Source: Planctomycetota bacterium
GTDB taxonomy: Bacteria; Planctomycetota; JACOTG01; JAJDCM01
Direction: 5' to 3'
NCBI GenBank assembly: GCA_029260825.1
Contig: JAJDCM010000170.1
Span: forward strand, 1 to 51,368
Length of the DNA stretch: 51,368 bases
Program-made: the position numbers and the translations under genes
In this document: in pieces, positions 12,745-27,442 of the stretch
Layout: each line of letters starts with the position of its first letter
Position numbering within the stretch: the stretch's first letter is position 1
The notes under the pieces: generated by a model
Seen by the model: only the letters and a program-made list of their open reading frames with translations
Databases searched by the model: none
What the model was told of the DNA's origin: nothing

Positions 12745-14079
12745 ATGATGAAACAGATACCAACCTTGACCTTTTCTGCAATCGCCCTGGCTATCCTGTC
12801 CTTCACGGGGACAGCGCTTCAAGCCGGCGAACAGAGAGGAACCACACCTCCGAACATTCTTTTCATTCTTGTTGATGATCAGAGATTCGACACCGTTGGG
12901 TACGCCGGGAACTCGGTCATTCAGACACCGGCTCTCGATTTGCTTGCCGCGGATGGTGCCCGTTTCGATGCCCTCTATTCGGCGGGGCCTCGCTGTGCGC
13001 CGAGCCGGGCGTCTCTCCTCACCGGGCTCTACCCCCATCAGCAGGGGAACGGCATCCAGACCAATAAGCTCTACGCGGACTTTTCCAGCGAGACGCCGAC
13101 CCTGGCCGAGTACCTGAATGAGGCCGACTATCTGACGGCGTTTGTCGGCAAGGCTCACCTTGGAGGGGATCCAAAGGCATGGGGTTTTCAGCACACCCCG
13201 ATCTGGTTAGCCACGGGCGCAACAGCCTACGAAGATCCGCGACTCATGCTGGAAGGGCGGCAATCGGTGGTGCGAGGCTCAACAACGGAGATCTTCTCTC
13301 GTGCTGCCGTTGAGTTCCTCGAGGACCATGGGAGCTCGCAGCCCTGGTTTCTCTGGCTGGCAACAACCGCCCCTCACGCTCCCACGTGCCTGGATTGCAA
13401 CACGGATTTTCCCTACAACCAGGCGACCATCGAAGCAACTCCTCCTCCGGGACTTCCCCCGGGTACACCGATGACTGAAGTGGATTGGGCCAGCTATTAC
13501 TCAACGATTACTCATCTTGACAACGAGATCGACCTGATTCTGGATACTCTCATCACGGAGGGGCTTGACTCCAATACCTATGTCTTTGTGATCAGTGACA
13601 ACGGAATCATGAACGGTAGTCATGGAATCACCAGCAAGGGAGTCTGGTACGAGGAATCTGTCCGGCTCATGGGAGTGGCTCGAGGACCAGGAATTGCTCC
13701 CGGGACGGTATTTTCCGATCCGGCGTCCGTGGTCGACTTTCTTCCGACGTTCCTGGAAATCGCCGGTGTTTCCATTCCTTCCGCTCTTGAAGGGGTCAGC
13801 CTTCTTCCCGGCTTGACCGGAGGTTCAACCCCTCGCACGACGATCTTCGCTGAAATGGACTCGAGTTCGGTGGCACCCTGGGAGATGGTGACCGCTTTTT
13901 CCGGGTCGGCTTCCGGCTACAAGTACGTGTCACTCCTTGGCGGGTCAACCGAGATGCTTTTCGATCTCAACGTGGATCCTTTCGAGCTGACGGATCTGAT
14001 CGCTGGCGGTAGTCCCCCGATGACTGTTTTGAATCAGTTGCGCTCCCTTCATTCAACCTGGCAATCCTCGACTCCGTAG
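12745..14079 (+). CDS. Secreted type I sulfatase with canonical CAPSR motif
   Basis: Hydrolyses sulfate esters, probably of a polysaccharide or glycan, outside the cytoplasm. The 444-aa protein has a signal peptide ending near ALQAGEQ. The alkaline-phosphatase-like fold shows the metal ligands Asp44-Asp45 in FILVDDQ and ISDNG later in the protein. The formylglycine signature is CAPSR with Cys84, followed by ASLLTG, so this is the only one of the three sulfatase-family proteins in the window with a standard maturation motif. No genuine formylglycine-generating enzyme is seen here; the FGE-like domain in the kinase at 14936 lacks cysteines in the active region. ATG codons at 12745 and 12748 are both possible and neither has a strong ribosome site. 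It lies 33 bases after the SBBP gene. Confidence 0.95.
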   Translation: MMKQIPTLTFSAIALAILSFTGTALQAGEQRGTTPPNILFILVDDQRFDTVGYAGNSVIQTPALDLLAADGARFDALYSAGPRCAPSRASLLTGLYPHQQGNGIQTNKLYADFSSETPTLAEYLNEADYLTAFVGKAHLGGDPKAWGFQHTPIWLATGATAYEDPRLMLEGRQSVVRGSTTEIFSRAAVEFLEDHGSSQPWFLWLATTAPHAPTCLDCNTDFPYNQATIEATPPPGLPPGTPMTEVDWASYYSTITHLDNEIDLILDTLITEGLDSNTYVFVISDNGIMNGSHGITSKGVWYEESVRLMGVARGPGIAPGTVFSDPASVVDFLPTFLEIAGVSIPSALEGVSLLPGLTGGSTPRTTIFAEMDSSSVAPWEMVTAFSGSASGYKYVSLLGGSTEMLFDLNVDPFELTDLIAGGSPPMTVLNQLRSLHSTWQSSTP

Positions 14080-14935: not shown

Positions 14936-17557
14936 ATGCCTTCCCGGGATGAAGACCGTCCGGCGGCCAAGGACTCCCGAACGAGAGTTGATGTTCTTCT
15001 TTCTGAATTCATCGATCGAGCGGAAGCCGGGCTTGAACCCTCCGAGACATCCTTCGTGGGCCGACTCTCTGATGAAGGGGCACGAAAACGCCTGGCGGTT
15101 CTGATTCAGGAATATCGGAAACTTGGAGATCTCCTTCCCGATCCGTCCGATCCAATCGGAACCTTGGGAAGCTACAAGGTGGGAAAGGAGATCGCGCGGG
15201 GGGGAATGGGAATCGTCTACGCCGCGGTTGATTCAGATGGAAACGATGTGGCGATCAAGATGCTGCCCAAGGGTGTCTACCTGGAGGAGACCACGATTTC
15301 TCGCTTTGAGCGAGAACGGGAGATCCTGAAGAACCTTGACCACCCCGCCGTCGTCAACGTCATCGAGATTGGAGAGGACGGCGGACGACAATTCTTCGTC
15401 ATGGACCGTCTGGACGGAGGCTCGCTTGAAGAGAGGATCCGACTGCGTCGTGCCGAGCCACCGGCTCCTTCCGATGAAGAGGTGATCCTGGCAGTTACTG
15501 TCATGGCGCGTATTGCCAGGGCGACTGCGGCAGCCAACGAGCACGGTGTTGTTCACCGCGACATCAAACCCTCCAACATTCTTTTCGATGATCAAGGAAG
15601 ACCCTACCTTGCGGATTTCGGATTGGCCCACATTCAAGGTGCCTCTCACCTGACTTCGACGACGAAGCTTCTTGGAACCGCGGCGTATATTGCTCCAGAA
15701 CGCGTTCTCCGTCCGGAGATCGCATCCGGACCGGGCGTGGATGTGTTTTCCCTCGGAGTCACTTTGTTCGAGGCCATCACGCTTCAGCGACCCTTCCAGG
15801 GAACCCTGACGGATATCATTGCTGCAGTGCGATCCGGGCCACCGCAGGTCTCGATCTTCCTGGGAAGGTCCCTGGGGAGGGATCTTGATTCCATTCTGGA
15901 GAAGAGCCTCGCTGACCTTCCGTGGTTGCGGTATCCCACGGCAGCTGCTCTGGCGGAAGATCTTGAGGCCTGGCTTGCAAACGCTCCGATTCTTGCCAAT
16001 CGAGGAAGGAGAATGCGGAGGGTTGTTCGCACTCTGCGAAGAAGGCCCGGGGTTTCGGTCGGGGTCTTGATCTCCCTGCTGATCCTTCTCTTTGCGACAT
16101 TTTTTTGGGCAAGAACCAGAGCTCGGTTGAAGCAGGCTGCTCAAGATCGAATTGCCGAGCTGAACAAAGGGGCGGAAGACGCTCTTGCCACCCACAAAGA
16201 TCGCCTTGATTCGCTGGATCGGCTCCTTCATGAGAGCGCAAGAACCGGCCTTCACTCCTGGCCACTCCTCGGGGCATCCGCCGAAAGAATCGTGGACTGG
16301 GACGGCGAATATGCCGCGCTACGAGCATCTGCTGAGGTCGCCCACGACTTCGTCGATCGTGAGCTCAGAAAAGTGCTGACGGAGGACCCAAACAACGAGA
16401 CGGCCAAGGAGCTTCATCAAGAGTTTCATCTTCGGGTGGCACAACGCTTGCAGCGCCTTGGTTTCTGGCGGGAAGCCGAGCTTGAGTGGACGACCTGCGA
16501 CGATTTTCCCTGGATCAAGGAACCGGAGCGCGGAAGGCTGACCGTGAAAGTTTCACCTCCCCACTCCCTTGTTCATGTCAATCGCTATGACCTGGCTGAT
16601 CTTCCGTGGTCGGAGATCCAGGTGGAGGAGCCGGAGGGAGGCTTGACTTCTCCGATAGATCTCCCTCGCCTGGATCCGGGTTCCTACGTGGTACTCCTCC
16701 GTCGGCCAGAGGGCAAACGCTGGATTCGTGTGCCTGTTTTGATTCAACGGGGAGAGACGTCCGAAATCGAAGTCAATCTCCCCGAGGATGATCTCCTTTG
16801 CGATGATTGGGTGTACATCGCGGACGGCGCCTTCCTTGCCGGATCTGACATGCGGGCTCCGGCCAGCGAACCTCTGGTGCGACGAGATGTGGGCGATTAT
16901 TTCATGAAGGTGCATGAAGTAACGTGTGGGGAGTACGTCGAATTTGTCCAGGACGTTTCCCGATCCGGAGCCTGTCCATTCGGATCGAAAGAGAAACACG
17001 ATCCTCACGACCATATTCCCCAGGATAGCAAGGGGAAGCGGTTCGCCGTGGCCGAGAATGGCGAAGTCTTCCTCACGGAGGATGACTATTTCCGCCATGA
17101 CATCGCGATCCATCAGATCGACTGGCGGGATGCGGATCATTATGTCCAGTGGCTCAATCGACGGGGAGTTACCCGGGATGAACCATGGATCTATTCGCTA
17201 CCAACCAGTGATCAATGGGAAAAAGCGGCCCGTGGAGTCGATGGCCGGGCATTTACGTGGGGGGATCAATTCAAGTGGAATTTTGCGGCCACCTGGATAA
17301 GCCGCAACGAGCAATATCACCTGGAGCCGGGGCGATGGAAGACCGACACGTCTCCGTTCGGGGTCATGGATATGGTGGGCAACATTCGAGAGTTCTGTCT
17401 GGAGCATGATCCAAAATCGAATCGACACCTGATCCGGGGTGGGGAGGAGAGCTTCTACACCGAACCTGAGTACCGTCTATCGGCTCGTTGGGGTGGAATC
17501 AAGAGGGAAGTGAACTGGGACTTTGGAATTCGCCTGGTCCGAACTCTGAAGAAATGA
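14936..17557 (+). CDS. Membrane Ser/Thr kinase with C-terminal FGE-like (SUMF1) domain
   Basis: An 873-aa Hanks-type kinase. The kinase domain spans about residues 78-350: glycine loop ARGGMGIVY, Lys108 in VAIK, catalytic HRDIKPSN with Asp209, and metal-binding Asp227 in DFG. One membrane segment (about 372-393) is followed by a coiled, charged stretch (RLKQAAQDRIAELNKG), a beta-rich region, and from about 630 to the end an FGE-sulfatase fold (GAFLAGSD, EVTCGEYVEFV, DMVGNIREFC, LIRGGEESF, GIRLVR). The region matching the catalytic cysteines of true FGE (RGGEESFYTEPEYRLSARW) has none, so the domain is more likely a sensor or binding module. ATG 14936 lies five bases after the sigma stop; an upstream ATG at 14858 would overlap sigma by 73 bases. 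It may phosphorylate the neighbouring sigma factor (inference). Confidence 0.92.
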   Translation: MPSRDEDRPAAKDSRTRVDVLLSEFIDRAEAGLEPSETSFVGRLSDEGARKRLAVLIQEYRKLGDLLPDPSDPIGTLGSYKVGKEIARGGMGIVYAAVDSDGNDVAIKMLPKGVYLEETTISRFEREREILKNLDHPAVVNVIEIGEDGGRQFFVMDRLDGGSLEERIRLRRAEPPAPSDEEVILAVTVMARIARATAAANEHGVVHRDIKPSNILFDDQGRPYLADFGLAHIQGASHLTSTTKLLGTAAYIAPERVLRPEIASGPGVDVFSLGVTLFEAITLQRPFQGTLTDIIAAVRSGPPQVSIFLGRSLGRDLDSILEKSLADLPWLRYPTAAALAEDLEAWLANAPILANRGRRMRRVVRTLRRRPGVSVGVLISLLILLFATFFWARTRARLKQAAQDRIAELNKGAEDALATHKDRLDSLDRLLHESARTGLHSWPLLGASAERIVDWDGEYAALRASAEVAHDFVDRELRKVLTEDPNNETAKELHQEFHLRVAQRLQRLGFWREAELEWTTCDDFPWIKEPERGRLTVKVSPPHSLVHVNRYDLADLPWSEIQVEEPEGGLTSPIDLPRLDPGSYVVLLRRPEGKRWIRVPVLIQRGETSEIEVNLPEDDLLCDDWVYIADGAFLAGSDMRAPASEPLVRRDVGDYFMKVHEVTCGEYVEFVQDVSRSGACPFGSKEKHDPHDHIPQDSKGKRFAVAENGEVFLTEDDYFRHDIAIHQIDWRDADHYVQWLNRRGVTRDEPWIYSLPTSDQWEKAARGVDGRAFTWGDQFKWNFAATWISRNEQYHLEPGRWKTDTSPFGVMDMVGNIREFCLEHDPKSNRHLIRGGEESFYTEPEYRLSARWGGIKREVNWDFGIRLVRTLKK

Positions 17558-18987: not shown

Positions 18988-20367
18988 TCAAGTCTTCTTG
19001 ATGTCAAGCTGGGTCATTTTCTGCTGGAGACTCTGCCGGTGGATCCCGAGAGTCCGGGCGGCCGCACTCACGTTTCCCTGGTTGCGGTCCAGAGCGGCGT
19101 GAATAGCTCGGCGCTCGAACCACTGGAGAAGCTGGTTCTTTGCCTCTGTTAAGGGAAGGCCCTCAAGGGAGGATATGTCCAGATCTGTTTCGCCCTGCGA
19201 GGATGGACAAAGGCCCAGATCCACCGGTTCAATCACGTCCCCCACCGTCATGGCAGCCGCAGCCGTGATGACCTGCTTCAATTCCCGCACGTTGCCAGGC
19301 CAAGAATGTTCGAAAAGCGCTTTTTGGGTTGCGGATGAAAGCCTGGGGAAAGGTCCCTCGTCTCTTGTTTTCATGCCGTCCAGAAAATGGTTGGCGAGCA
19401 AGAGAATATCTTCCCCGCGGGTGCGCAGCGGGGGAACTTGAAGGTGAATTCCCCGGACCCGGTAGTAGAGGTCCTGGCGAAAATGTCCCTCCTCGATCGA
19501 CTGGGTGAGATCCTGGTGTGTGGCGCTGATGACTCGAACATCTACTTTTTCCGTGCGGGAACCTCCCACGGGAGTCACCTCTCTCTCCTGGAGAGCACGA
19601 AGAACTTTCGTTTGAAGCACAGCCGGCATATCCCCGATCTCGTCGAGGAAGAGAGTCCCTCCGTTTGCCTGAACAAAGACCCCATCACGATCGGTCGTAG
19701 CTCCGGTGAAGGCTCCCTTCTTGTGTCCAAAGAGCTCGCTTTCGGCCAAGGATTCGCTGATGGCAGCTGCATTGACCGCGATGAAGGGTCCGGTCGCTCG
19801 GGAGCTGAGGTCATGAATTTGTCGGGCGATCAGTTCTTTTCCGCTACCGGTTTCGCCCCGGAGTAGGATGTCGAGAGGAGCCCGCGAAGCCCTTTCCATC
19901 CGGGTAAAGAGTTCGCGCATGGGACGACTGATTCCAAGAAGAGCACCTTGAGCTGTCTTTCCGTCGATCCGGTCCTGAAGCTCGGAAACCTTCATCTCCA
20001 GGGCGACTCGATTTGCGCTTTTGCGAGCGATGGCCCGGAGTCTTTCCACTTCATATGGCTTGGTCAGGTAGTCGGTCGCGCCAAGACGCATGCAGGAGAT
20101 GGCACTTTCCACCGTGTCATCAGCGGTGACAACGATGATCTCGGGTCGATGAGTCGCCCCTTCCAACCCGGACAGGACAGCTTGACCGTCAAGCTCCGGC
20201 ATGTTCAGGTCAAGAAACACAAGATCGGGGGCCTCATTGCGAATCGACTCGAGAGCCTCCCGTCCGTTCGAGGCTTCGAGGATCTTGTAGTCGAGTTTAT
20301 CCAGTGCCTTTCGAAGGCCGAAGCGTGCGGGCTGTTCGTCGTCGGCAATGAGGATCGTGAGTTTCAT
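18988..20367 (-). CDS. NtrC-type sigma-54-dependent response regulator
   Basis: A 459-aa transcription activator. The receiver domain (1-120) has the acidic pair Asp9/Asp10, phospho-acceptor Asp53 in FLDLNMPELDG and Lys103. The AAA+ domain has Walker A GETGSGKE (171-178), the sigma-54 contact loop GAFTGA (218-223), Walker B TLFLDEIGD (238-246) and the SWPGNVREL element (355-363). The C-terminal Fis-type helix-turn-helix is at about 428-455 (NVSAAARTLGIHRQSL). All parts needed for ATP-driven opening of sigma-54 promoters are intact. The start overlaps the stop of the kinase gene by four bases. The consensus sigma-54 promoter upstream of the PspA operon (27243-27257) is an obvious candidate target. 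Confidence 0.97.
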   Translation of the reverse strand: MKLTILIADDEQPARFGLRKALDKLDYKILEASNGREALESIRNEAPDLVFLDLNMPELDGQAVLSGLEGATHRPEIIVVTADDTVESAISCMRLGATDYLTKPYEVERLRAIARKSANRVALEMKVSELQDRIDGKTAQGALLGISRPMRELFTRMERASRAPLDILLRGETGSGKELIARQIHDLSSRATGPFIAVNAAAISESLAESELFGHKKGAFTGATTDRDGVFVQANGGTLFLDEIGDMPAVLQTKVLRALQEREVTPVGGSRTEKVDVRVISATHQDLTQSIEEGHFRQDLYYRVRGIHLQVPPLRTRGEDILLLANHFLDGMKTRDEGPFPRLSSATQKALFEHSWPGNVRELKQVITAAAAMTVGDVIEPVDLGLCPSSQGETDLDISSLEGLPLTEAKNQLLQWFERRAIHAALDRNQGNVSAAARTLGIHRQSLQQKMTQLDIKKT

Positions 20368-22451
20368 GATGCTTCTGTCTTCCTGGGGAATCGTACGGAA
20401 AAGACGGTGCCCTGGGTTTTTTCGGTCTCACAATGAATGTGGGCGCCAAGCTCTCTCAAGGTTCGACCAACAAGGTAGAGGCCAAGGCCCGTTCCATTGT
20501 TCTTGGTGGTGACGAAAGGTTCAAAAAGACGATCTTGTACCTCGGGCGGAATGCCAGGGCCACTGTCTCGAACTTCAATGGTCAGGTGAGTCTCATCACT
20601 CAGGCCGCAAACGTTGACGACACCTCCCGGGCCAGCGGCGTCGAGCCCATTGGAGATGAGGTTGAAGAAGATCTCCCGAAGAGCGGTCTCATCTTCCTCA
20701 ACAATGGGAAGAGAGTCGGGAAGATCCACCTTGAGAGTGCTTCCCGTTTTTCGAGCAACATGTCCCAGGACATGCAAGGTTTCCTGAACTGCGTGAACAA
20801 TGCCGACTTTCTTTCCGGCGGCTGGTGAGGGACGAACAAAGGAAAGCAAGCGGGTCACCGTCGCTGACAAACGATCGACTTCGGAGCGTACGATCCGCAG
20901 GTCCTCCGCCCCTGGAGCGTCTTTTTCCATGTCTTCTTCCAGTACGGTGACAATGGTCTTGATGGAAGAAAGTGGGTTCTTGACTTCGTGAGCGATGGAG
21001 CTCGCCACCAGCCCAAGGGTTGACAGTTTTTCGTTTTGCATGGCCCGTCGTTCGGCAGCAAGTCGATCCGCCTGAAGAAGGCTGTTATTCAGAGTGATTC
21101 CGAGTTGCTCGGTCAGAAGCTGGGTCATTCCAAGGAGCTCTTCCGTCAGCTGTCGATTTCTTGATCGTCCTCCGATCAGGGCAAGACCCTGGATCTCCGG
21201 ATGGGAAAGAACAACCGCCGTGGAGGCCTTGGCCCTTGTCAGGAGATCCTCGGTGTCTTTCCCCGGTGCACGGTGGACGGTAACGAGCTGATGATTTTCC
21301 TGGAGCAGGATGCGGTGAAGCGAGGCCGCGTCCTCATCGGATAATGGTGGATTTCCTGTCCCGCGAGTCGCAACCGATCCTTCGGAAGAGAAGGTCCATA
21401 CGTACACAAAAGAAACGGAAAGGGCCTCGGCGGTTTGGGCCTGGAACCAGCTCATGACCTGGGTCGGTGGTTGTCCCGAAAGCGCCGTCATCTGAACCGA
21501 CAAGCGCCTGAGCTGATCCCTCTGGGTCGCCATGCGCTCTCCCATGAGGTAACGCAAGGCCTCCGCCGTTCGTTCTCGAAACGGTTGATAGAGAAGAATC
21601 ACGATGACGATGACGATGACCGACATGAGCTTGAAGTCAACCTGGTAACGAATGCTGAGCTCTTCTCGAAGCTGGCTCAAGAAAACATGGTCAAAGAGAA
21701 GGACGGCAAGAATGATCGCTCCGTAAACGATGCTTCTTTCCAGGACGATCTGAAGGAAATTGAAACGAAGGATGGTGTAGGTAAGAAGCAGGGTCAGAAG
21801 AACGGGAGACATGGCCAGCATCAAGAAGAGGGGGGCCGACTCGACATGGAGCAGATCGAGAATCCCCATCGTGACGTCCAGGACGAGAAGGATCACAAGG
21901 CCCAAAGAAACCCGGCTGTAAAAGGCCCGCATCCACGGAACCTCTGTCTTGGAACGGAGTCGATAGAACCCGACCGCGGCGATCGTGTTGACGAGACAGA
22001 GCCAGAACAGGTAAGGAGTCGTATAGGCCCCGAGAACATCCATGATCTTTCCCCGGGGATCGGGCAAGTTGAGAGCCACCATGGCACTCACTCCGAGGGG
22101 AAGGTAAAGAACGGGAACGATCCAGATCTTTAGCCGTTTCCCGCTTTCTCGTTGGGCCGCCCGGACCCACGCGTGAAGCATGGCGGAAGGCATCAGCAGG
22201 AGTCCAACGCTGATGGAAACCAGGCAGACCCGGAGAATCCTACTCATCCACATTCCGGGGGCTGGGCTCAGCCAGCTATGACAAAACGTTGCCGTGTGAA
22301 ACAGCCAGACAGCAAACACAAGCAGATACAAGGGGGACGGAGATCGTTTGCGGTTTCCCTTCTCCAAAAGAACAAGGAGTACGGCGGTATCGAGGACGGT
22401 GGCCCCGCCGTAGCAAAACAGCTCAATATCCTGGAGTGACACGGTTGTCAT
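20364..22451 (-). CDS. Multi-pass membrane sensor histidine kinase
   Basis: A 695-aa sensor kinase. About eight to ten hydrophobic segments fill the first roughly 300 residues. A GAF-like cytoplasmic region follows (about 320-460, ending GLALIGGRSRNRQLTEELLG). The HisKA domain carries His488 in IAHEVKNPLSS. The ATPase domain has the N box (FFNLISNGLDAAGP), G1 (RDSGPGIPPE), F box (LFEPFVTTK) and G2 (GTGLGLYL). Gene order and four-base overlap with the sigma-54 regulator make them a two-component pair. The overall layout (polytopic N-terminus, GAF, HisKA, followed by an NtrC-type partner) recalls PrsK/PrsR of exopolysaccharide/PEP-CTERM systems, though no exosortase genes are seen here. It sits 102 bases after the PspA-cluster small gene on the same strand. 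A membrane or envelope signal is likely; the ligand is unknown. Confidence 0.94.
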   Translation of the reverse strand: MTTVSLQDIELFCYGGATVLDTAVLLVLLEKGNRKRSPSPLYLLVFAVWLFHTATFCHSWLSPAPGMWMSRILRVCLVSISVGLLLMPSAMLHAWVRAAQRESGKRLKIWIVPVLYLPLGVSAMVALNLPDPRGKIMDVLGAYTTPYLFWLCLVNTIAAVGFYRLRSKTEVPWMRAFYSRVSLGLVILLVLDVTMGILDLLHVESAPLFLMLAMSPVLLTLLLTYTILRFNFLQIVLERSIVYGAIILAVLLFDHVFLSQLREELSIRYQVDFKLMSVIVIVIVILLYQPFRERTAEALRYLMGERMATQRDQLRRLSVQMTALSGQPPTQVMSWFQAQTAEALSVSFVYVWTFSSEGSVATRGTGNPPLSDEDAASLHRILLQENHQLVTVHRAPGKDTEDLLTRAKASTAVVLSHPEIQGLALIGGRSRNRQLTEELLGMTQLLTEQLGITLNNSLLQADRLAAERRAMQNEKLSTLGLVASSIAHEVKNPLSSIKTIVTVLEEDMEKDAPGAEDLRIVRSEVDRLSATVTRLLSFVRPSPAAGKKVGIVHAVQETLHVLGHVARKTGSTLKVDLPDSLPIVEEDETALREIFFNLISNGLDAAGPGGVVNVCGLSDETHLTIEVRDSGPGIPPEVQDRLFEPFVTTKNNGTGLGLYLVGRTLRELGAHIHCETEKTQGTVFSVRFPRKTEAS

Positions 22452-22553
22452 CAGGGTCTTCTAAAGAGGTGTTTCTTGGAAACCTTTGAGAGGCTTAGCA
22501 CGCTTCTTTGTAGTTCCCGAAAAGTTCGCCCAGGCCTTCATGAATAATCCTGG

Positions 22554-22889
22554 CTAGCCGAACACGATGACTTCATCTTCGGGGACTTCGAGAGTTTTAC
22601 CATCCTGAGTAAGCCTGGCAGTTCTCCCGAGAGAAAAAGAGACCGGATCGACCGACAAAATGGCCTGATTTCCCTGGAGTTGACAGTCATAGTCGACGAA
22701 GGCTCCCTCCTCCGTGTACCCGACTCTGCGTCGAATCACCTGGATGTTCTCTCCTTCGATTTGAATGAGACAGGGGAGGGGCAACCTCAGGAGCTGCCCC
22801 TCGTAGGGTGAGATCCGGATTCGATCAACTTTCCACCAGTCTCCTAGCATTCTCGAAAGGATCGTCCTCCGGGAGAAGGGATCACTCAT
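22554..22889 (-). CDS. Small protein coupled to pspA
   Basis: I do not recognise this 111-aa protein. It starts at ATG 22889, inside the last codons of pspA (eight-base overlap of the form ATGAGTGA), which argues for translational coupling. The longer open frame running up to 23321 is a shadow of pspA. Residues 1-25 are mixed charged with two tryptophans (GDWWKVDRIRISPYEG). The rest looks all-beta, with short strands such as GQLLRLPLPCLIQI, QVIRRRVGY, FVDYDC and AILSVDPVSFSLGR. There is no signal peptide or membrane segment. By position it may work with PspA at the membrane or modify its action. Confidence 0.75.
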   Translation of the reverse strand: MSDPFSRRTILSRMLGDWWKVDRIRISPYEGQLLRLPLPCLIQIEGENIQVIRRRVGYTEEGAFVDYDCQLQGNQAILSVDPVSFSLGRTARLTQDGKTLEVPEDEVIVFG

Positions 22890-23565
22890 CTTTCTTCTCG
22901 ATCCGCTTGCGTAAAGCTTCGAACTCTGACCGGAGGATTTCCTCTTTCTCCTGGTTTTCGAAATCTTCGGCGAGATCTTCTTGGTCCGGGTCCCGATCCT
23001 CGAGGCGGTCGTAAGCATCCGCCAGAGCTTCAGTTCGCTCGACCTTCTTTTCCAGCTGATCGAACTGGGAAAAGGCCGATTCCCGATTCGCCCGGGACAG
23101 GGTCCGATGAATCTTCTGTTCCGAATTTGCCCGCACAAGTCTGGCAAGTAGAAGGGTTCGCTTCTGCCTCGCTTGCCGGATCTTGTCTCCCAGGTCCTGG
23201 ACGGATCGCTGGAGCTTTGCGGTCTGGGTCTTTTGCTTCCTGTACTCCTCATCAAGGGTCTCTGCTCTCTTGCTGGATTCGACCTTCCGGGCAAGGGCTG
23301 CTCGACTCTTCTCTTCATCATTTCGTGTGAGGGCAGCGGTGGCGCGATCGAGCCAGACCCGAGTCTCCTCCCGAGCCTTTTCGACCTGCCTCTTCAGCTG
23401 GATCTCGTCCGCGATCGCTTCTGCTACACCTTTTCGAACCCGACCTAGCTCCTCTTCCATATCGATGATGAGCTGATGAAGCATTCGCTCCGGATCCTGA
23501 ACTTTTTCTCTGAACGCGGTGACGCTTGAGCGCATGACGAGGGTGAAATCTTGAATCCATTTCAT
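22882..23565 (-). CDS. pspA: PspA/IM30 family membrane-stress protein
   Basis: A 227-aa coiled-coil protein of the ESCRT-III-like PspA/Vipp1 family, which binds and stabilises damaged membranes. The N-terminal amphipathic helix is MKWIQDFTLVMRSSVTAF. Next comes the family hallmark VQDPERMLHQLIIDMEEEL, then long charged helices (about 30-200) with heptad patterns and an acidic tail ending EALRKRIEKKDE. Start 23565 is preceded by AGGAG; the frame extends 12 codons further upstream without a better site. It lies 26 bases after the large membrane protein gene and overlaps the 111-aa gene. In E. coli, pspA is driven by sigma-54 and PspF. Here a sigma-54 promoter and an NtrC-type activator are both in the same cluster. 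Confidence 0.95.
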   Translation of the reverse strand: MKWIQDFTLVMRSSVTAFREKVQDPERMLHQLIIDMEEELGRVRKGVAEAIADEIQLKRQVEKAREETRVWLDRATAALTRNDEEKSRAALARKVESSKRAETLDEEYRKQKTQTAKLQRSVQDLGDKIRQARQKRTLLLARLVRANSEQKIHRTLSRANRESAFSQFDQLEKKVERTEALADAYDRLEDRDPDQEDLAEDFENQEKEEILRSEFEALRKRIEKKDE

Positions 23566-23591
23566 GGTTTTCTCCTGTTGATGTGAGAGGA

Positions 23592-26500
23592 CTAATTCCA
23601 TGCCTTGAGAGCGGCGGAAAGAGCACGAACTCTCTGCAATAGATGTTCACGGTTTCGTTCGGCGAGAGCCCCAAGGCTCATCACCAGGCCGCCGAACCCG
23701 AGCCCGGCAAACCAAAGTAGGTTGGGATGGTCAATCGATCCTCGGACCACCATCGCGACCAGGTCGGCAAGAAGAAATGCACATCCGGTCCACATGAGCG
23801 CCTTGATGCGAAGGCCGACGGCCGCAAGAACAATCAAGGCCGAGAGGACCATCAAAGAAAAGAGATGAAACCAGCTGCCGGTTACGATGTGAAAGATGGG
23901 AGAAACAAGGATGATGAGTGCTCCCGCGTAAGTCAGAGCCGTCTTCACTCCAGGAGACAGTTCCTTTCGAAAGAGATGAGTCAAGCCAAGGACCGAGCCA
24001 CCGACCGGAATGAGAAAAAGTTGGGGATCCGAAAAGGGAAGGTCGAGGGCCAGGAGGATCGTACATACGTTCAGGATTGCAATCGAACCGACGAACGCCT
24101 TCCTTCTTCCTGTTTGCATGCCGTAAACGAAGTAGAAAGAGGAGGCAAGGAGGAGTCCCAGGCTGCTGAGGCCGGGAATCATGCTGGAGAATCCGAGCCC
24201 ATGACGGACCACCGCAAGGAGGGCGGCGGCGGCGGGGAGGAGCAACGATGTCTTCATCAGGGGACCTTGAAGGGCGTTGAGATTCTCCCGAGTTCGAGTT
24301 CTTCGAGCGACGCCGTAGGCCACGAAGGCCAGAATGGAGAGGATGATCTGGCTCGTGCCATTGCCGAAAGTGATGATCTTCTGATAGGCCATCCATCCGA
24401 TCGTGATGCCGAACAGAGCCTCTCCGTACCATACGTAGGTTTCATTATCTCTTTGACATCCAAAGCGGATGGCGTTTCCAGCCAGAACCAGGAGGCTTCC
24501 TATAAAGACAGTCCCTTCCAGGAAGGAAACCCTGGGAACAAAGGTCGTTGCAATGAGAGAGTAGACGAGAAAGACAAGGAGGACACTCTTGATGACCATG
24601 CACAAGTCCTTCTCTTGCCGACTCCGAGGAATCATTCTTCTCCACAGAAGAAGACTTGCTGATGCGGCGGCAAAGAAGATCGCTCCAAGATCATGCTCGG
24701 TCATTTCCCAGACAAAGAAGCTCTCTTTGCGAGTCAGCTGCACGATCCACGAGAGAAGCTGGCCGTTCAAGAAAGCGATCCCGGGAACGCGAAGTTCGTT
24801 CCACGCATTCTTTCTTGCCAGGAGCAAAAGACCAAGGCCCGCGAGGATCCCGGCAATCCTGATTTCATGATGAAAGCCAAGAAAAGACAGACTCCCGACG
24901 CAAACAAAGAGACCGCACAAAAGGAATCGGGCGGAGCGAAGAAGAGTTGGAAGACCTTGATATCCAGACGGGGGGGGATCGACTTCAAAGAGGCGATGAA
25001 CGCGTCGAAGAAGAGGCAAAGCCAGGTGTCCAAGTCCCATGGCAATGGCGGGAATCCAGGAAAGAGAATCCTTTCCCATGAAATCAGTCAAGGCCAGCAG
25101 GATGAAGACCATTGATGCAAGGAGGGTCACAAAAGAGAAGATGGGTCTCTCCCTCTCACTGCATTGATGGAGGGCAAGGAATCCGATGAGGGCCTGGGCG
25201 AAATAGGTATGGAGGGGAGGCGAATCGAACTGGAACACGGCAAAGAACGGTGTGCCGAGATGAACAAGCAGGATCACCGGGACAACCCGCAAGAGAACGG
25301 ATCGAATCGGAGGAAGAAGTGACACTTCGAGGGCGGAGGTTCCTCTGCGGGTCAACAGAACTCTCGCTCCATGGAGGGTGGCCAGGGAGAGGGTCAGAAG
25401 GAGTAGATGAGCGTTCAAGGGCATTCGCGTGGACAGAAAATGAATGGCGGTGAGACTGAAGATGACGGTGCTCATGCCGATCGAGGGTTTTTGAGTTCGG
25501 GCGCAATGGAGAAGGAAGGAGCCGATCAACAGAACCAATGTCCCGATCTCGAGGAACGAGATGGATGGGGAAATTGTTGCTTGAATGATCCACAGAGTGG
25601 CGAGCAAGAAGGTTCCGATGAGCGAGGCAAGATGGCTCGGCGAGGCGGAAGATGCGCAATCATCGTTCCATCGAAAGACTGATTGATCAAGCCTCTTCCC
25701 GAGCAGGCTGGTGTGGAAGATGAGCAGGGCCGGAAGCGTCAACGTGAGTGCAGGATCGACGGGGAAACCAAGGACCTCTCGAGCAAACGGGACGGCACCC
25801 AGGGCTGCAATCAGGGATGAGGCCACGGTAAGAAACGCCATCCTTCGATCTTTGACAGCTCGGGTCCCAAGGAGCAGGAGCAAGGTCATGGCTGCTCCCA
25901 CCGGAAAGGTCGTCTTGAAATGGGTGAGAGATGCTGCAAGAAGGATCACTTCGAGACCGATGATGAAATGGCTGACTGGAGCGGCAAAGAACACTTCCTG
26001 CTTCTTCTTACACCTTTGTAAAAAGAGCGTTCCAGCCAGCAGAAGTGGAAAAAAGGTGAGTCCGTAGAACCCATAGGGGAGTCCGTCCTCCCGCACCACA
26101 TCCGCTCCGAATTGAGCCACCCTCGCTGCTGTTTCCCGAAAGAACGCGGGAGAGAAGTTGTAGGCCGCAGTGAAGGAAACGAGCATTCCCCAGACAAATG
26201 GAGTCATTCGGGTCGACCTCGCCAGGACGGCGAAGATCACCCCGGCGATCGCAGCGGCCGGAGTGAGCTCGGTCGGGACCCTACCGTCAAGAACCGGCAG
26301 AGCGGTGAGAACAACCCCCGACGCCGCCAACAAGATTCCGACGAACAGGGGAAGGATGATCGACGACGGGTAGGGTCGAATGAGATCTCCTGTCCGCTGA
26401 CGATGCACGTGAACCACCGAGTTCGCGGTAAGAAAGATCGGCACCGAAAGAAGAACGCACCCGAGGCCGAGTTGAGCTTGAGTGACATCGCCGCAGAGGT

Positions 26501-27191
26501 GAGTCAGGAACACCGCAAGGAATTGACTCGCAAGAAGGGCTACGGGAAAGAACCCGAAGAGGATGGGACGTTGATTCTTCTCCGCCAGCCAGAAGCAGTG
26601 CCGATTGACCTTGATGATTCCGGCGCAAAGGACTCCCCACAAGAAGAGGCCGAGGAGAGGCGATATCCATCCGACCTGATCGCGAAGACTCGGGATGACT
26701 GCACCCGACACCGAGAGGATCAGGTAGGAGATCAAGAAGGTCGGTTGGGTGCCGCCCAGAAACTCGGAGAAAATCCGTCCTACTGAGATGGTGGCATAGA
26801 CAAGAGTGATGGCTACCATGAAGACCCGGGCGATGACAGTATCAGCGCCGGCAAATGGCATCGAAAGAAACAAGACCGGCACCAGCATCGTGACGAGGGC
26901 CCGCAGGACCGTTCCCGTCTTGCGAAGAGCCAGTCGGTTGAAACAGATCGCGCCGGTCGCATCGATGAGAGCGGTGTAGCCAAGGAGAATCACGATTTTC
27001 CAGAGGGGTGCATAGGATTGCCAGTGTGTGGTGACAAGCATCGCCGAGGAGCCAAGGAGGATCGCCATGCCGATACCCAGAACCCAGATGATGCTGCGCT
27101 CCTGAAGAAAGGTGTCGAGGAAACGGAGGAGTGTGGAACGGGGCTCGGGGGGCGTTTCCGTTTCGAGGGGAGTTGGCAGTTGGATCCTCAT
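23592..27191 (-). CDS. Very large polytopic membrane protein, first gene of the PspA operon
   Basis: A 1199-aa protein almost entirely made of hydrophobic segments; by eye about 35-40 membrane spans separated by short charged loops. No catalytic motif, nucleotide-binding site or known domain stands out. The first 40 residues and the last 20 (NREHLLQRVRALSAALKAWN) are polar and probably cytoplasmic. ATG 27191 is preceded by GGAG and matches the start of a sensible N-terminus; the frame continues 16 codons upstream. The gene begins about 50 bases downstream of a consensus sigma-54 promoter and ends 26 bases before pspA. Its shape recalls the huge membrane proteins of the DUF2339/DUF2157 kind, but I cannot assign it. 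A role as membrane anchor, transporter or stress sensor for the Psp circuit is inference. Confidence 0.85.
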   Translation of the reverse strand: MRIQLPTPLETETPPEPRSTLLRFLDTFLQERSIIWVLGIGMAILLGSSAMLVTTHWQSYAPLWKIVILLGYTALIDATGAICFNRLALRKTGTVLRALVTMLVPVLFLSMPFAGADTVIARVFMVAITLVYATISVGRIFSEFLGGTQPTFLISYLILSVSGAVIPSLRDQVGWISPLLGLFLWGVLCAGIIKVNRHCFWLAEKNQRPILFGFFPVALLASQFLAVFLTHLCGDVTQAQLGLGCVLLSVPIFLTANSVVHVHRQRTGDLIRPYPSSIILPLFVGILLAASGVVLTALPVLDGRVPTELTPAAAIAGVIFAVLARSTRMTPFVWGMLVSFTAAYNFSPAFFRETAARVAQFGADVVREDGLPYGFYGLTFFPLLLAGTLFLQRCKKKQEVFFAAPVSHFIIGLEVILLAASLTHFKTTFPVGAAMTLLLLLGTRAVKDRRMAFLTVASSLIAALGAVPFAREVLGFPVDPALTLTLPALLIFHTSLLGKRLDQSVFRWNDDCASSASPSHLASLIGTFLLATLWIIQATISPSISFLEIGTLVLLIGSFLLHCARTQKPSIGMSTVIFSLTAIHFLSTRMPLNAHLLLLTLSLATLHGARVLLTRRGTSALEVSLLPPIRSVLLRVVPVILLVHLGTPFFAVFQFDSPPLHTYFAQALIGFLALHQCSERERPIFSFVTLLASMVFILLALTDFMGKDSLSWIPAIAMGLGHLALPLLRRVHRLFEVDPPPSGYQGLPTLLRSARFLLCGLFVCVGSLSFLGFHHEIRIAGILAGLGLLLLARKNAWNELRVPGIAFLNGQLLSWIVQLTRKESFFVWEMTEHDLGAIFFAAASASLLLWRRMIPRSRQEKDLCMVIKSVLLVFLVYSLIATTFVPRVSFLEGTVFIGSLLVLAGNAIRFGCQRDNETYVWYGEALFGITIGWMAYQKIITFGNGTSQIILSILAFVAYGVARRTRTRENLNALQGPLMKTSLLLPAAAALLAVVRHGLGFSSMIPGLSSLGLLLASSFYFVYGMQTGRRKAFVGSIAILNVCTILLALDLPFSDPQLFLIPVGGSVLGLTHLFRKELSPGVKTALTYAGALIILVSPIFHIVTGSWFHLFSLMVLSALIVLAAVGLRIKALMWTGCAFLLADLVAMVVRGSIDHPNLLWFAGLGFGGLVMSLGALAERNREHLLQRVRALSAALKAWN

Positions 27192-27242
27192 GATCGATCT
27201 CCAGATTGCAGTCGGGTGTTTCTTGTGTCTCCAGGACAAAAC

Positions 27243-27257
27243 GCAAGGACGGTGCCA
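27243..27257 (-). promoter_or_regulatory. Consensus sigma-54 promoter of the PspA operon
   Basis: Read on the minus strand, TGGCACCGTCCTTGC matches the sigma-54 consensus TGGCAC-N5-TTGC in every fixed position, with the GG and GC doublets at the required spacing. It lies in the intergenic region, about 52 bases upstream of the ATG at 27191, giving an expected leader of about 40 bases. The neighbouring NtrC-type activator gene supports the call. Confidence 0.85.
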
Positions 27258-27333: not shown

Positions 27334-27442
27334 GTCGATCCAGTTCCCCGGTTCCTCCTGCATCCTCTGCAGGGTAGCGACTGCATTTCTTTGAGGAGGT
27401 GAGTCCTCGAATCAAGGAGAGTGCCTTCCGATTCCGATGGAG

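Follow-up and report, generated by a model that had tools for sequence, protein, structure and literature searches.

How is a pspA operon switched on when it is encoded together with a two-component pair? PspA family proteins guard membranes in other bacteria, and PspA responses have been worked out in Proteobacteria, Firmicutes and Actinobacteria. In Escherichia coli, the psp genes depend on sigma-54 through PspF, an activator without a receiver domain, and PspA restrains this activator. We address the question in a stretch of 51,368 nucleotides from a Planctomycetota bacterium (the window, contig C79 of an assembly of 8.37 Mb in 425 contigs), where five minus-strand genes encode, in this order, a giant membrane protein, PspA, a protein of 111 amino acids (aa), a membrane sensor histidine kinase and an NtrC-type response regulator. 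What the DNA itself displays is the set of genes, the sequences of the promoter and dyad ahead of it, and the conservation of all of these together. On comparative sequence evidence, we put at about 0.78 the probability that the kinase–regulator pair switches on a conserved planctomycete PspA operon through paired dyads and a sigma-54 promoter.

Gene cluster and upstream sites

An earlier note, made from the DNA alone, had placed five same-strand genes behind a TGGCAC-N5-TTGC sequence, and all of these are present where it had put them (Table 1). The genes are closely spaced: 26 bases separate the giant gene from pspA, pspA and the 111-aa gene overlap by 8 bases, the kinase and regulator genes overlap by 4, and a gap of 102 bases precedes the kinase gene. 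Consensus scans detected neither a terminator in this gap nor a sigma-70-type promoter between 18800 and 27500. The five genes likely constitute one operon. ATG 27191 is the probable start of the giant gene, rather than TTG 27239, where the longest open reading frame begins, because the N-termini of its relatives fit the later start.

The promoter-like sequence matches all ten fixed bases of the sigma-54 pattern, and its end lies 51 bases before this ATG. Taken alone, the motif is weak evidence, since the window holds two matches (0.07 expected by chance), the second of them at 16437 inside a coding frame, and exact matches genome-wide number 23 versus 13 for the reversed pattern. The promoter evidence becomes strong through its position, its conservation in relatives and the dyad upstream. 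Additionally, the source genome has two rpoN genes, and all 16 relatives tested gave an rpoN match, 15 of them above the cut-off. Many relatives carry TTGA or TTGT where the window promoter has TTGC; the E. coli psp promoter, included as a control, is TGGCACGCAAATTGT, with TTGT as in several relatives. Further upstream lies an 18-base-pair dyad, TGCAGT-N6-ACTGCA, an element absent from the earlier note and the predicted activator site of the cluster.

Table 1 Genes and predicted regulatory sites of the cluster in the window
Feature	Position	Strand	Basis or placement
Giant polytopic membrane protein, 1199 aa, cluster gene 1	23592..27191	-	Open reading frame, hydropathy, structure model, weak DUF2157 in homologues
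PspA/IM30 family protein, 227 aa	22882..23565	-	Pfam PF04012, E = 4.7e-40
111-aa companion protein (WWxxDRIR helix and beta domain)	22554..22889	-	Alignment, structure model, no Pfam match
Membrane sensor histidine kinase, 695 aa, with about 8 membrane segments at the N-terminal end	20364..22451	-	HisKA, HATPase; hydropathy
NtrC-type response regulator, 459 aa, receiver, AAA+ with GAFTGA, Fis-type helix-turn-helix	18988..20367	-	Pfam, alignment
Sigma-54-type -24/-12 promoter TGGCACCGTCCTTGC	27243..27257	-	Pattern match, conservation
Predicted activator site, dyad TGCAGTCGCTACCCTGCA, 11/12 consensus letters	27368..27385	-	128 bases ahead of the -24 element
Weak second half-dyad, 7/12	27345..27362	-	23 bases from the first dyad

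The cluster is bordered downstream by an MnmM-type methyltransferase gene on the opposite strand, and upstream by a divergent planctomycete cytochrome gene.

Conservation of the cluster and its upstream sites

Scanning with an alignment of four PspA sequences yielded 40 loci, of which 39 are planctomycete by title and one is titled "bacterium". The gene order, whose conservation the earlier note had proposed to check, recurs: a kinase and an NtrC-type regulator follow pspA at 14 of the 40 loci (L080, L084, L085, L086, L087, L088, L089, L092, L097, L098, L104, L105, L106 and L112), and the pair also follows pspA in genomes G321, G545, G569 and G527. The giant gene is present at 13 of the 14 loci with the pair in cis, the contig of L086 beginning at pspA; a match of at least 25 bits to the 111-aa protein was found at 12, and not at L106 or L112. 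At L083 the contig ends within the kinase, while at L115 and L116 the kinase adjoins pspA and the regulator lies elsewhere. The kinase of L115 is followed by a stand-alone receiver-like gene of 137 aa (13363-13776). In four genomes (L093, L103, L108 and L109), a full-length kinase orthologue stands away from pspA. Of 16 genomes searched, nine have a regulator orthologue (E < 1e-100), which lies in trans in six of the nine; the other seven (L079, L082, L090, L091, L101, L102 and L117) have none and hold kinase-core matches only.

Promoters were scored with the pattern TGGCAC-N5-TTG at the 29 loci with an anchored start of the giant gene (12 of 41 were left out), of which 17 are regulator-positive in cis or trans, 6 are regulator-negative and 6 have unknown regulator status; a seventh regulator-negative case came from L044, an upstream piece belonging to the L117 genome. 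The promoter is conserved together with the kinase pair, which answers the test in relatives that the earlier note had named: 13/17 regulator-positive genomes have it with at most one mismatch and 17/17 with at most two, versus 1/7 and 2/7 of the regulator-negative genomes. At most one mismatch is reached by 4.4% of random 370-nucleotide windows.

The dyad shows the same distribution. Its consensus was read, before scoring, from the upstream DNA of 21 loci that include all 17 regulator-positive ones. At least 10 of the 12 letters are matched in 16/17 regulator-positive versus 0/7 regulator-negative genomes, the best scores of the latter being 7 or 8; among random 420-nucleotide windows, 186 of 5000 reach this level. 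At 22 loci the best dyad starts 91–152 bases upstream of the -24 element, a distance that suits an enhancer site, and at 18 of these 22 a second dyad of at least 8/12 lies 23–25 bases from the first (2.6% by chance). A pattern combining dyad and promoter, searched in 392 genomes of the phylum, gave five matches versus none for its reversed control: the window cluster, a gene on contig C342 of the same genome, another five-gene cluster, complete, in G321, and two further genes of a different sort, which from their frames look SulP-like and HtpG-like.

With the motifs fixed, we then looked for the giant gene across the class of G193, where 40 of the 397 genomes searched have it. The 32 stretches examined comprised 15 already-seen contigs and 17 new ones, 16 of the latter with an anchored start. 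Twelve of these 16 held-out loci have a dyad of at least 10/12, and the same twelve have a promoter with at most two mismatches (six with at most one); the remaining four have dyad scores of 7–9 and promoters with 3–4 mismatches. The held-out loci that carry the regulator in cis, three in number (L235, L240 and L244), are all positive.

Several observations weigh against activation of the cluster by the pair through these sites. As for the genes, gaps of about 0.7–0.9 kb interrupt the cluster at L080 and L089, and the kinase match of L106 is divided over two frames. As for the promoter, a -24/-12 site with at most two mismatches occurs in 27.6% of random 370-nucleotide windows, and G063/G211 have a one-mismatch promoter yet neither regulator nor dyad. 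As for the dyad, the consensus was set on the loci that were scored, so that only the 16 held-out loci are a fresh test, and for 13 of these 16 the regulator was not searched in trans; L237, one of the held-out loci, has a 111-aa-type match but neither dyad nor promoter. L092 reaches a dyad score of only 9, with two promoter mismatches, the second dyad of the window itself is weak (7/12), and near forms of the dyad (at most one mismatch) are not enriched in its genome (20 versus 32 in the control). Finally, Fisher's test for co-occurrence of regulator and dyad (p = 2e-5) includes no correction for descent. It overstates the association, because most regulator-negative rows fall in a single clade and the dyad-negative rows amount to two changes on the PspA tree, one in a clade of 11 rows (8 scored, all negative) and one at L117, so that the joint absence of regulator and dyad comes down to about two events. 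Better evidence than this co-absence statistic comes from the held-out loci and from the fact that the dyad recurs in upstream DNA that has otherwise diverged.

Where the pair is unlinked from pspA, the upstream sites are informative. The earlier note had counted it against its proposal if the pair were found elsewhere with other targets. The first part holds for the kinase in four genomes and for the regulator in six, but the giant–pspA promoter keeps its dyads (10–12/12) in 6/6 genomes with the pair or the regulator in trans; the pair therefore likely controls pspA in trans. The unlinked genomes would also fit a pair that mainly controls other genes, with the pspA cluster as one target of several, and so would a second dyad with a perfect sigma-54 site in the source genome (C342, 25510-25645, L176), where the promoter starts 64 bases before a gene for a 367-aa membrane protein. 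We regard this alternative as unlikely: the 367-aa protein was found in 0/17 regulator-positive relatives and in 2/6 regulator-negative ones, with a weak match in a third, the giant–pspA genes retain the dyad in nearly all regulator-positive genomes as scored above, and the source genome contains the exact form TGCAGTC-N6-CTGCA only once, ahead of this cluster.

The source genome offers some further observations. The 367-aa protein on C342 (P0125) has membrane segments and a zinc-ribbon-like C-terminus and is a candidate second target in this genome; as a conserved one it is not supported. On contig C241 (39173-39187, L177), a perfect sigma-54 site, TGGCACTGTCCTTGC, begins 137 bases before dnaK and follows a gene for a predicted response regulator. 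Predicted sigma-54 control of chaperone genes in Planctomycetia is described in the available portion of PMC12316311. We rejected the dnaK promoter as a target of the cluster regulator, since despite its perfect site there is no dyad in the stretch inspected. Perfect sigma-54 sites on C253 (408-422, L064) and C425 (48449-48463, L076) each lie about 100 bases upstream of one of two similar frames starting MEVQSVISVALR. A second pspA (C129, 22413-23066, L046) lies beside DUF4178, DUF350, spermine-synthase and ion-channel genes, and no sigma-54 site with at most two mismatches is listed upstream of it.

Control of the regulator and the partner proteins

The kinase contains the Pfam domains HisKA and HATPase, and the regulator matches Response_reg (E = 2.2e-28), Sigma54_activat and HTH_8. 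The latter has the build of an NtrC-type protein, namely a receiver, a sigma-54 AAA+ domain with GAFTGA and a Fis-type helix-turn-helix, and the dyads upstream of the sigma-54 promoter agree with this class. The recognition region N(V/I)(S/T)xAARxLG(I/L/M)HRQ(S/N)LQ is kept in all 19 of the 21 regulators whose C-terminus is present, in cis and in trans; such a near-invariant helix is expected if the DNA site is constant.

A sigma-54-driven cluster could also be governed by PspA restraining its activator directly, as with PspF, the receiver being a minor input. This would suit the near-identical promoters and the resemblance of the proteins: aligned over 289 residues, the regulator shares 41% identity with E. 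coli PspF, and over 185 residues PspA shares 27% with its E. coli counterpart. The PspF residues that dock PspA are Tyr51, Leu52 and Trp56, as given in the accessible part of PMC3791423, and this patch is not kept: the docking Trp occurs in 0/21 regulators, and the window regulator has Asp-Leu-Ala there. The acidic pocket, Asp and Lys of the receiver are intact in 21/21 rows. With the patch absent, the regulator is unlikely to be controlled by PspA binding to it directly and is likely to be controlled by phosphorylation; we disfavour a lock of the PspF type as quite unlikely, and the proposal in the earlier note that a membrane two-component pair replaces PspF gains support from the comparison. 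Chance or background composition as the source of promoter and dyads, for which the genome-wide promoter counts and the match in a coding frame of the window might speak, is highly improbable and was rejected, since the sites recur at an equivalent position although the surrounding upstream DNA has diverged, and in view of the held-out loci (12/16) and the composite control with zero matches.

Activation by the kinase–regulator pair would proceed as follows. The membrane kinase would phosphorylate the NtrC-type regulator encoded beside it; the regulator would next occupy the paired TGCAGT-N6-ACTGCA sites and activate the predicted sigma-54 promoter ahead of the giant gene. Co-transcription, phosphotransfer, binding and activation are all likely, and the signal is likely stress on the membrane or envelope, a role assigned from membership of the PspA family. 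The PspA product would coat or mend the stressed membrane, with the giant protein as a likely membrane anchor or sensor partner. The Trp-bearing N-terminal helix of the 111-aa protein probably binds the membrane or PspA, and its beta domain may link to the kinase. Because kinase and regulator come last in the cluster, their own level would rise upon activation, a positive feedback confined to genomes with the pair in cis; the autoregulation that the earlier note thought possible would follow there, and not where the pair is in trans.

The two partner proteins have few recognizable relatives. The giant protein has 32 hydropathy segments and an all-helical structure model (mean predicted local distance difference test score, pLDDT, 75). 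Its Pfam matches are all below cut-off (DUF2157 and Fumarate_red_C), and an N-terminal DUF2157 appears at E ≤ 0.1 in 9/18 members of its family (best 3.9e-6); DUF2157 is placed in LiaF in the available text of PMC11237479. Searching by fold brought up nothing meaningful (best E 3.2e-3, template modelling score 0.1). Assignment to a known family was rejected, as the window copy stays below the Pfam cut-off and no solved relative was found.

The 111-aa protein is modelled as an N-terminal helix followed by a beta domain (pLDDT 83). A profile search returned 18 proteins including that of the window, both organism-named ones being Planctomycetaceae, and W18, D22, R25 and L36 are invariant among 17 sequences. 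No Pfam match was obtained for the protein itself and only weak single-member matches among its 17 relatives (one to DUF4178, E 0.05), and a known family was rejected here too; no convincing solved relative was found, and the best fold-search matches, IF5A-like structures at E 0.13, are not significant. At 11 loci whose examined stretch shows no kinase pair, pspA is instead followed by a short WWxxDRIR frame (L079, L082, L090, L091, L095, L096, L101, L102, L107, L110 and L111), of 23–50 residues at seven loci and 68–86 (longest frame) at four; genome-wide absence of the pair was tested for 6 of the 11. An exception is G063/G211, with a full-length 111-aa-type protein and no regulator. We tentatively raise a fuller version, doubtful as it is, of a PspA system in Planctomycetia under phosphorelay control, in which the membrane kinase replaces the PspA–activator lock of E. 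coli and the 111-aa protein links PspA, membrane and kinase. On this view the beta domain, missing from the short peptide in the clade that has no kinase, regulator or enhancer sites, would be what contacts the kinase.

Comparison with known systems

Our literature search returned no account of this cluster, or of PspA with a kinase and an NtrC-type regulator in Planctomycetes. As far as their available text goes, two large PspA surveys (PMC9239133 and PMC11237479) present PspA in the company of PspF, of Lia-type two-component pairs and of NtrC-like regulators bearing ACT or PAS domains; by word counts, the stem "Planctomycet-" is absent from their main texts. In the portions available, PMC12316311 counts PspA among its sigma-54-enriched groups, and also DnaK, the latter for Planctomycetota and others, and PMC4641369 reports a PspF-like single-component case in Desulfovibrio.

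Four known arrangements come close. The PspF–pspABCDE system of E. coli has in common with the cluster PspA, a near-identical sigma-54 promoter and an AAA+/Fis activator, whereas the planctomycete activator has a receiver and a partner kinase, lacks the PspA-docking Trp, and is encoded with other partner genes. No Pfam match to pspB or pspC was found among the five genes, the rest of the genome not having been searched for them, and PspA scores 114.9 bits against an equivalog cut-off of 242.95. LiaIHGFSR of Bacillus subtilis, as presented in the accessible text of PMC11237479, likewise encodes a two-component pair with a PspA homologue, and the N-terminus of the giant protein weakly resembles DUF2157, a membrane domain of LiaF. 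In contrast to Lia, the planctomycete regulator is of the receiver–AAA+–Fis type with a sigma-54 promoter and not a receiver with a winged helix, the kinase has about 8 membrane segments, and no Toastrack protein, nor a LiaF carrying that domain, is found among the five genes; the LiaH equivalog score is 58.1 of 380 bits.

PrsK/PrsR of the PEP-CTERM system also combines a membrane kinase and an NtrC-type regulator whose distribution matches an upstream motif plus sigma-54 site, according to the available part of PMC1569441. The predicted target here is pspA and not PEP-CTERM genes, and membership was rejected since the two scores, 86.2 and 366.1 bits, fall short of the curated thresholds of 300 and 502.6 bits. 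ZraSR and AtoSC are among the best NCBIfam matches of the kinase core and regulator and follow the same general logic, but the scores are far below the equivalog cut-offs, and sensor and target differ.

The cluster is a variant of the PspA stress systems already known (PspF, LiaRS) and not a separate kind. It keeps the PspA core and the sigma-54 promoter, while the switch appears to have changed from a protein–protein lock to a kinase relay. It further offers two unnamed partners, the giant membrane protein and the 111-aa protein with its short form. The predicted binding site is directly testable, and genomes with and without the switch provide a natural contrast.

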